A DNA stretch of 64,000 bases. Origin: Flavihumibacter solisilvae (GTDB lineage: Bacteria; Bacteroidota; Bacteroidia; Chitinophagales; Chitinophagaceae). The notes under the pieces are model-generated. The model did no database searches. It was not told where the DNA came from and saw only the letters and a program-made list of their open reading frames with translations. Made by a program: the position numbers and the translations under genes. Where the stretch lies: the NCBI RefSeq assembly GCF_000814475.1, contig NZ_JSVC01000019.1:124001-188000 (forward strand), in the 5' to 3' direction. This document shows, piece by piece, positions 31,014-33,439 of the stretch. Positions within the stretch are counted from its first letter, which is position 1, and every line of letters starts with the position of its first letter.

Positions 31014-31034
31014 CAAATGTATATACATATATAC
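31014..31034 (-). promoter_or_regulatory. Possible promoter and near-palindrome before the cytochrome locus
   Basis: On the minus strand TACATTTG (31014-31021) matches the Bacteroidota -7 element TAnnTTTG, 24 bp before the first ATG. It overlaps a near-palindrome (7-bp arms GTATATA/TATATAC, 31019-31034). No clear -33 box is seen. If real, this promoter would bypass the riboswitch. Confidence 0.4.
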
Positions 31035-31204: not shown

Positions 31205-31243
31205 AAAAAAGGGTAAAGCACTTGGATGAGCAAGCGCTTTACC
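31205..31243 (-). terminator. Intrinsic terminator of the TPP riboswitch
   Basis: On the minus strand a 13-bp stem (31231-31243 with 31212-31224, one G-U pair, 6-nt loop) is followed by one C and six T (31205-31210). It begins 4 nt after the last base of the riboswitch P1 helix, the usual place for an expression-platform terminator. Confidence 0.9.
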
Positions 31244-31247
31244 TGTT

Positions 31248-31359
31248 CACTATTTTTTCCTTCGCAGGCATTACCCTGATCAGGTAGTATGGGTGTTATC
31301 TCAGGTCTGAACAAACTAACCTAAAGTCAGTTTATTATTAAACCACCCCATAAATAGTG
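31248..31359 (-). promoter_or_regulatory. TPP (thi-box) riboswitch
   Basis: Reading the minus strand, all core elements of the TPP aptamer appear in order: P1 strand CACTATTT (31352-31359), GGGGTG (31344-31349), a P3 extension with its own hairpin, CTGAGA (31299-31304), ACACCC pairing back to GGGTG, ACCTGATC (31278-31285), the CAGG/CCTG P5 stem, TGCGAAGGAA (31257-31266), and the closing P1 strand AAATAGTG (31248-31255). P1 is a perfect 8 bp. A terminator follows directly, so TPP binding would stop transcription. The next gene on this strand begins at 30990, 214 bp past the terminator, and is not a thiamine gene. In the rest of the 611-bp gap (31360-31601) I see nothing but leader sequence. 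Confidence 0.93.
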
Positions 31360-31601
31360 ATTGTACCTGATATAGTGTCAAAACTGTGCCAGTTTTTCCT
31401 GCCGCTGAAATCCGGCCGTAGGTCCCAAAATTTGAGGAAATTTATGCAGTGGGTGTGGAATAGACTCAACAATTAAATTACGATCGGGTGATAGGTAAAC
31501 AGGTGAATCAGTGACAGGTTACGGTGCAACTGCGGATATGAGCAACCAATGGATGGCGAATCTACCGGCACAGAAATTTTATCTGGAGGCAAAAAAATCA
31601 T

Positions 31602-31724
31602 ATGAAAGATTGGCTGCGCACTTTACTTGCCGGATACGGCGCCTATAAATGGGGCGGCGGTTGCCTGGGAACGATAGTAGTTTTTATACTGTTGTACTGG
31701 TTACTGGGACAAACAGGATGTTAG
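31602..31724 (+). CDS. 40-residue single-helix membrane protein
   Basis: A short frame encoding MKDWLRTLLAGYGAYKWGGG followed by a hydrophobic helix (CLGTIVVFILLYWLLG) and a short QTGC end. A GGAGG lies 12 bases upstream (31585-31589), unusual in this AT-style translation context, and supports the start. It sits 26 bp before the AsmA-like gene on the same strand. The AGYGA-GGGC-helix pattern looks like a conserved small-protein type. Function unknown. Confidence 0.6.
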   Translation: MKDWLRTLLAGYGAYKWGGGCLGTIVVFILLYWLLGQTGC

Positions 31725-31750: not shown

Positions 31751-33439
31751 ATGAAAAGACTGGTGATAATAATTCTTGTATTGGCAGCAGTTGGCACTGC
31801 TGTTTATTTTGTTGCAAGGAAATATGTCGAATCTCCCGACCTGGCGCGGCAGCTGAAAGAACGGCTCGTGCAACTTGTTGCGGAAAAAAGCAACGGCCTC
31901 TACCAGCTGAGCATCGGTGAAATTAATATTGATGCAGACAACACATCGGCGGTATTAAAGGATATCAGGTTGCAGACAGATAGCGTGTTACTCGGGCAAC
32001 TTATCGAAAATCGTGTATCCCCTGCCGTTGTATATGATTTCTCCCTCGATAATCTCATCATCAAGAATGTTGACATTCTTTCTTTCCTGAATGAAAATTC
32101 GGCACGGTTAAAAACGATCACGGTCTCCGGCGGGAAGCTGGTAATCCGCCGGCTCGGCCGCGGAAAAGACAGTGTAGCCGTCGCCTCTGAGCCCAGGCAT
32201 GAAGTATTGAAATCTGTAAGGCGCTCCCTCCGTGAAGTAAGGATCGATACCGTTCACATCAACGATATTGATTTCCGCTATGTTAACCTGAAAAAACAGG
32301 AACAGAAACTAAAGAAATTACATATCGACCTCTATTCAATCGCAATTGACAGCACGGCATTGCATGACAGCACCAGGATATTTTTCGCAAAGCAGATCAT
32401 GGTTTCAATGGATAGCATTTCGCTGCCGGTAGCGAAAAATATGTACAGGCTGTCGGCAGAAAAGCTGGTCCTGGCTGCCGGTGAAAAAAGGATCACTACC
32501 ATACACCAATTGCGTTTCCTGCCGGTATCCGGCAAAAGCCTTGAAGCGCTTGCAGCGGAGACAGGCAAACAAAGAGATGTGTTCAGGTTAAAAGTGTCTG
32601 ATCTTACCATTCATGATTTTGATTACATGGCTTTACTGGAAGACAGCGCAATCGTAGCAGGATCGGTGATATTGAAAAAGCCTGTCCTGCAGGTTTTCAA
32701 TGATAAAAGCCAACAGCCACCCACAGAGAGCAAGGTGGGAAAATATCCCATCCAGCTTCTTGCAAAACTACCATATGGAGTAAGGATTCCCCGGGTGGAG
32801 ATTGAACAGGGCAGCGTCACTTACCAGGAAAAGAATGAGCAGGGAAACGATATCGGAAATATCAGTTTTGACCAGGTGAACGGAAGTGTTGGTCCTCTCC
32901 GGTTTTCGTCAGCAGGCACTTTCGCAGTGAAAGCGGAATTCCGGGCAAGGTTTATGTCCCGCTCGCCCATGCATGTCAGGTTCGACTTTCCCGTATCACG
33001 CAATGGCCAGTTTTCGGTCAGGGCCCGCTTCGATCCGTTTGAGGTGGAACAGCTAAACCAGGCAGCATTGCCCCTTGGCAGCATGAAGCTGAAAGAGGGG
33101 AAAGTAACACGGCTGGATTTTGAGATTAAAGGTGATAATACCAGTGCAACCGGGACTACCACCATGAACTACGAAGGGTTGAAAGTAGAAGTGATGAAAA
33201 GCGATGACGGTGAAGACTATAAGAAGAGAGGCTTACTGACATTGTTCGCCAACAAGTTCGTGTTAAACAAGGACAACAAACCAGGCGACAGGCACAAAGA
33301 CACCTACACTGCGTCGTACAAGCGCGTAACTACAAAATCCTATTTCAACCTGGTTTGGAAGACGCTCTTTTACGGCGTAAAAGCAAATACCGGAGTAGGC
33401 CTGAAAGGAAGAGATAAAGAAAGGGCCAGGATACATTAA
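31751..33439 (+). CDS. AsmA/DUF748-like envelope protein
   Basis: A 562-residue protein with one N-terminal membrane helix (about residues 4-21) and a long beta-rich body of repeating amphipathic strands (ITVSGGKLVIRRLGRG, VEIEQGSVTYQEKNEQG, NISFDQVNGSVGPLRF, KEGKVTRLDFEIKGDN). This is the pattern of AsmA, DUF748 and related bridge-like lipid-transport proteins that span the periplasm. Family membership is judged from pattern only. rpiA starts 10 bp downstream, so the genes are co-transcribed although the functions look unrelated. Confidence 0.55.
   Translation: MKRLVIIILVLAAVGTAVYFVARKYVESPDLARQLKERLVQLVAEKSNGLYQLSIGEINIDADNTSAVLKDIRLQTDSVLLGQLIENRVSPAVVYDFSLDNLIIKNVDILSFLNENSARLKTITVSGGKLVIRRLGRGKDSVAVASEPRHEVLKSVRRSLREVRIDTVHINDIDFRYVNLKKQEQKLKKLHIDLYSIAIDSTALHDSTRIFFAKQIMVSMDSISLPVAKNMYRLSAEKLVLAAGEKRITTIHQLRFLPVSGKSLEALAAETGKQRDVFRLKVSDLTIHDFDYMALLEDSAIVAGSVILKKPVLQVFNDKSQQPPTESKVGKYPIQLLAKLPYGVRIPRVEIEQGSVTYQEKNEQGNDIGNISFDQVNGSVGPLRFSSAGTFAVKAEFRARFMSRSPMHVRFDFPVSRNGQFSVRARFDPFEVEQLNQAALPLGSMKLKEGKVTRLDFEIKGDNTSATGTTTMNYEGLKVEVMKSDDGEDYKKRGLLTLFANKFVLNKDNKPGDRHKDTYTASYKRVTTKSYFNLVWKTLFYGVKANTGVGLKGRDKERARIH

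Follow-up and report, generated by a model that had tools for sequence, protein, structure and literature searches.

The TPP sensor in the window (the whole 64-kb stretch of DNA that was analyzed) probably does not serve as a switch for the neighboring oxidation genes, but belongs to a small-RNA family of the Chitinophagaceae and their relatives. We consider it likely, from comparison with related genomes, that the unit, with a promoter, an aptamer and a terminator but no gene of its own, gives rise to a stand-alone small RNA of about 160 nt that binds TPP. Such an RNA would span about 31364 to 31205 on the minus strand and would be transcribed by the sigma-54 polymerase, most likely under a stress or starvation signal. 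It would act in trans, and TPP binding would decide what becomes of the RNA or what it partners with; in this way the RNA would report or buffer the TPP level.

Comparison of the predicted units showed a shared aptamer, a covarying terminator and a common GGCAY element, with no consistent downstream gene, and the units have by this measure the anatomy of a trans-acting small RNA with a putative promoter and a terminator of its own. An earlier, sequence-only reading of this DNA had left three options, namely control of the oxidation locus by thiamine, a relic of a lost gene, or a short regulatory RNA. The anatomy of the last is borne out, and the recurring aptamer, terminator and upstream element extend it from a single locus to a family.

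Aptamer and terminator in the window

At the gathering threshold the single Rfam match in the 64 kb was the TPP aptamer RF00059, which aligned with 31360-31240 of the minus strand over the complete model (positions 1-105; 59.2 bits against a gathering cut-off of 54.3 bits; E 4.5e-9). The sequence-only reading had recognized an aptamer and its P1 helix at 31248-31359 and proposed this search, and the match agrees with it, with P1 one pair longer in the minimum-energy fold, at 9 bp (31360-31352 with 31255-31247). The 13-bp terminator with six U residues that it had placed close behind P1 was also found, separated from P1 by a gap of 3 nt and with a C ahead of the T run. The 168 nt from 31195 to 31362 fold with -56.2 kcal/mol (z -5.46), a value equaled by 0 of 200 shuffles. 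The coordinates of the features are collected in Table 1.

Table 1. Predicted features of the TPP unit and of the promoter of the adjoining gene, in the order in which the minus strand is read
Feature	Position in window	Strand	Basis or remark
Sigma-54-like promoter element TGGCACAGTTTTGACA	31376..31391	minus	-24 box TGGCAC intact; -12 part weak
Predicted transcription start, A	31364	minus	inferred from purine/pyrimidine positions in related units
TPP aptamer, P1 to P1, extended P3	31247..31360	minus	RF00059 59.2 bits and fold
Intrinsic terminator, 13-bp stem and 6-nt loop (31243-31212), then C and six T	31205..31243	minus	
-7 element TACATTTG, PSD1's own promoter, outside the RNA	31014..31021	minus	comparison with relatives

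Two further RF00059 matches occur in the source genome. One, of 66.8 bits, precedes a gene that by eye resembles an outer-membrane (TonB-type) receptor, and the other, of 38.1 bits and below the cut-off, lies at a PnuC-family gene (L003 1501-1623), where the first ATG of the open frame falls within the aptamer match.

A family of units and the genes beside them

Two other members of the genus, G001 and Flavihumibacter petaseus (G009), carry a unit of the same form, and a model of aptamer plus terminator (R1) was built from these two alone, as a two-row alignment with the structure set by hand. The window unit, which was absent from the training of R1, scored 87.8 bits. A three-way MAFFT alignment was dropped as a basis for the model, the P1/P2 side being misaligned. 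Applied to 294 genomes of the family, R1 gave a run of high scores among the matches listed, and from the best 51, which were fetched, 42 were kept as units, while 9 that by eye were ordinary TPP leaders were put aside.

The 42 units were aligned by fitting to the model, which works in its favor, and R1 selects for a terminator; with this caveat, the terminator helix showed two-sided changes at 13 of 13 pairs, with 91.5% paired, cells changed on both sides numbered 254 against 66.1 in shuffles, and covariation over the whole structure reached 0.562, compared with 0.229 when shuffled and at most 0.174 when slid. CTGAGA is kept in all 42 units, and the aptamer core carries on average 1.4 bits of information per paired column and 1.2 bits per unpaired column. 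The linker carries 0.4 bits per column (three usable columns) and the terminator loop 0.5 bits; outside the aptamer it is chiefly the helices and the T tail that are conserved across units.

That little sequence is conserved beyond the aptamer, and that more than one unit was found per genome in G066, G156, G239 and G289 among the matches listed, would suit a particular form of the stand-alone RNA, a TPP buffer, in which an abundant RNA binds TPP and frees it on degradation and has no base-pairing target. Such a buffer requires the RNA to reach a level similar to that of free TPP, and we hold it only tentatively, with the balance against it. The stand-alone small RNA as such, whether buffer or not, is addressed by the distribution of the units and by their neighbors.

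A second model, R2, made from the 42 units, was rejected as a unit counter, ordinary TPP leaders also scoring with it, up to 89 bits for one (L192) that precedes a receptor-like gene; its matches in 298 genomes of the order and 392 of the phylum were for this reason not used for unit counts. Among 53 R2 loci inspected by eye, the form with element and terminator was seen in the window's family only, while a pattern scan for promoter plus aptamer found the form also in records labeled Parachryseolinea silvisoli, Rhabdobacter roseus and Cyclobacteriaceae. As sampled here, the predicted family is mainly one of the Chitinophagaceae, to which other Bacteroidota add some members.

Genes around the units were called with our own longest-ORF script, which is error-prone, and related species were counted apart, so that the orientation and element counts are not independent events. 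With these reservations, the gene downstream of 49 units (the 42 from R1 and 7 chosen by eye among the 53 R2 loci) lay on the same strand at 31 and was convergent at 18. For 52 ordinary TPP leaders the counts were 51 same strand, 0 convergent and 1 absent, the controls consisting of 43 loci with full flanks, out of 47 ordinary RF00059 loci, together with the 9 leaders set aside above. The difference in convergent neighbors, 18/49 against 0/52, gave 3.8e-7 in a Fisher test.

These counts bear on the reading as an ordinary cis riboswitch, in which TPP would govern termination at 31205 and read-through would feed the PSD1 operon or, elsewhere, nearby stress genes. It is favored by the position of the next gene on the same strand, here as at the 31 units just mentioned. 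In 19 of these 31 that gene begins under 100 nt past the unit, although 3 of the 19 genes overlap their unit and are possible false calls, so some units may have a cis role. The F. petaseus unit, which lies 22 nt ahead of an MFS gene (L067 10897-12464), looks like a cis arrangement, and some of the near same-strand genes bear stress names (Usp, Ku, erythromycin esterase). The best matches of the MFS gene in the other genomes of the genus reach about 34% identity at most. Against the cis reading stand the convergent neighbors, which recurred in a second sample. This comprised 63 loci found by promoter plus aptamer, with no terminator required, one of which was truncated and left out. In forty-six a terminator was recognized, 38 times by the script and 8 times by eye, with 22 same-strand genes, 20 convergent and 4 without a gene, a count that holds for the terminator-bearing subset because a terminator was the condition for keeping these loci. 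Seventeen of these were already in the first set; the 29 new ones had 11 same-strand and 14 convergent genes and 4 had none, and the new units with script-found terminators alone (n = 23) gave 8, 11 and 4. The 16 loci without a terminator had 14 same-strand genes, 1 convergent and 1 none, and by eye they are mostly ordinary leaders or chance matches. With 18/49 and 14/29 convergent neighbors, the family as a whole departs from the arrangement of a cis riboswitch, the leader of a same-strand gene that it controls. An antiterminator, as a cis switch might need, was also not detected in the 42 units, where the unit's own arm exceeded swapped arms in 20 and shuffled arms in 18, in a test that lacks power because the cis controls gave little (8 of 13).

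The identity of the neighbors varies. Of five units in one genus (g86), three (L122, L129 and L130) are followed by a response-regulator gene at a distance of about 640 to 840 nt, one (L126) has a convergent gene and one (L131) a different same-strand gene. Examples that we chose from the whole set, by gene names that point to stress or to TPP, include units near genes for Usp, Ku, erythromycin esterase, DUF72, DUF763 and DinB proteins, two near a pyruvate phosphate dikinase N-domain, one near a divergent transketolase gene, and one (L139) near a mechanosensitive channel gene.

The upstream element and sigma-54

The sigma-54 promoter consensus is TGGCAYR-N4-TTGCW. A GGCA element lies 25 to 42 nt upstream in 40 of the 51 best R1 matches, the window unit included, a frequency that is no evidence alone because GGCA was the search key of the script. 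When one rule was applied to the 42 units and to 43 ordinary TPP leaders, the strict form GGCAY-N5-TT was found in 33 units and 0 leaders, a looser form in 36 units and 1 leader, and GGCA alone in 40 units and 10 leaders, the two units without the element being L133 and L139. Of the 40 GGCA-bearing matches, 39 have T at position 11 and 35 have T at position 12; G stands at 13 in 8, C at 14 in 16 and A at 15 in 27. Counted from the T of TGGCA, 33 of the 40 have a pyrimidine at position 26 and 38 have a purine at position 27. The window element has a spacing one base short, missing the strict form and fitting the looser one. A strict TTKCA promoter pattern and a sigma-70 scan found nothing for the window unit.

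Sigma-54-type patterns in the source genome numbered 1 against 3 in a control, and 13 against 5 in the looser form, and are not clearly enriched. The rpoN gene was present in 39/39 and 80/80 genomes searched, and the source genome has three copies, one of which adjoins an NtrC-type activator and a PAS kinase. In one genome (G016) about 24 kb separate a unit from the second rpoN, and having a second rpoN is weakly associated with having a unit among hand-picked genomes (22/44 against 10/36, p 0.066). With so weak an association, and with genome-wide patterns that give little, sigma-54 control is something that we infer from the form of the element.

A second type of rpoN adjoins response regulators and kinases (L226 5815-10712; also L223, L225, L227 and L228). 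Pfam confirmed the activator, the rpoN and the PAS kinase at L226 alone, and in some loci amylase-like, lipocalin-like or Ku/LigD-like genes were noted nearby by eye. These loci are possibly a sigma-54 stress system.

The oxidation locus and known systems

The next minus-strand gene after the window unit (30990-28669) encodes a PSCyt1/PSCyt2/PSD1 protein and is followed by DUF1501, NHL, PSCyt1/DUF2231 and PQQ genes and by no thiamine gene, assignments that uphold the earlier description of an oxidation locus without one. This gene lies on the same strand as the unit but has a promoter element of its own. The possible -7 element marked in the sequence-only reading is present, and it has counterparts. 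Upstream regions of PSD1 were compared from the window, the genus (13), another genus (1) and a paralogue (1), and 15 of these 16 have the motif TAnnTTTR, which we take to be the Bacteroidota -7 element, no more than 95 nt from the aligned start (shuffled mean 2.1); in 9 of the 15 the motif stands at position -31 or -32. The window's element would allow transcription of PSD1 without the TPP unit.

The start of PSD1 is assembled in 13 of 14 genus relatives, and comparison of the gap, as the sequence-only reading had suggested, located a TPP aptamer at this site in G001 alone (matches with E up to 0.001); the other 12 had no TPP match at that threshold, and a permissive Rfam search of L053 and L060 also gave none. 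In G001 an opposite-strand gene sits between the aptamer and PSD1. Its 40-aa product is one that the window encodes too, but there the gene is found on the far side of the aptamer. Because PSD1 has its own element in 15/16 regions, 12/13 relatives are without a match and the G001 gene intervenes, control of the oxidation locus by thiamine is disfavored, and we judge the cis riboswitch an unlikely reading of the unit. That a thiamine riboswitch was left behind when its gene vanished from this gap is highly improbable: the 12/13 relatives without the unit and the ordinary TPP leaders elsewhere in the same genomes would fit it, but the unit, with its terminator pairing and a strict upstream element foreign to ordinary leaders, recurs in dozens of relatives, where no particular gene regularly follows it, and G001 retains it, its terminator arms altered yet pairing, despite a PSD1 protein at only 73% identity.

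The 40-aa membrane-like protein (MKDWLRTLLAGYGAYKWGGGCLGTIVVFILLYWLLGQTGC, window 31602-31724, plus strand) has counterparts of 77.5-90% identity beside PSD1 at the loci of 9 relatives and no Pfam match at E 0.001. Thirteen PSD1 loci of the genus were fetched, and 9 of them encode a counterpart of the 562-aa protein at 31751-33439 (plus strand), which has neither a Pfam nor an NCBIfam match.

Riboswitches are as a rule annotated as the leader of the next gene, and EutX is an example of a non-coding RNA that includes a vitamin aptamer. The window aptamer resembles the TPP riboswitch RF00059 over its whole length and above the curated cut-off, whereas the units differ in having no adjoining thiamine gene, a terminator right behind P1, their own GGCAY element and convergent neighbors. 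The stand-alone RNA that we propose has parallels among known RNAs. SreA and SreB of Listeria are described as SAM riboswitch products acting in trans, and SreA also leads an operon thought to import methionine (PMC8079631). Like them, the units suggest that a terminated riboswitch transcript may be a trans-acting RNA, but many units have no same-strand gene. Rli55, a protein-sequestering RNA controlled by a B12 riboswitch, likewise places a vitamin aptamer within a non-coding RNA, but there the aptamer governs read-through into the ANTAR-bearing RNA (PMC8079631), whereas only 3 nt part P1 from the terminator in the window unit. For Bacteroides, one study places TPP riboswitches before thiamine synthesis and uptake genes and calls their mode of action in Bacteroidetes uncertain (PMC5613172). 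The small-RNA atlas of B. thetaiotaomicron left out candidates overlapping riboswitches (PMC10994844), a filter by which RNAs like these units would be missed. No description of the family appeared in the paper listings on orphan, stand-alone or trans-acting TPP riboswitches or on those of Chitinophaga, which came mostly from outside the subscription journals.

The family suggests that bacteria use the TPP sensor also without an attached gene, and a following gene should not be assigned thiamine regulation by position alone. For the Bacteroidota more widely, we put at about an even chance the proposal that dispersed TPP-sensing small RNAs with sigma-54-type promoters, often beside stress-type genes, serve as a trans signal or buffer of TPP, independently of thiamine genes. 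If the reading is true, a vitamin sensor has here become a free small RNA, as the recurring unit of promoter, aptamer and terminator would indicate, and a trans readout or storage of the TPP level by RNA would become testable.
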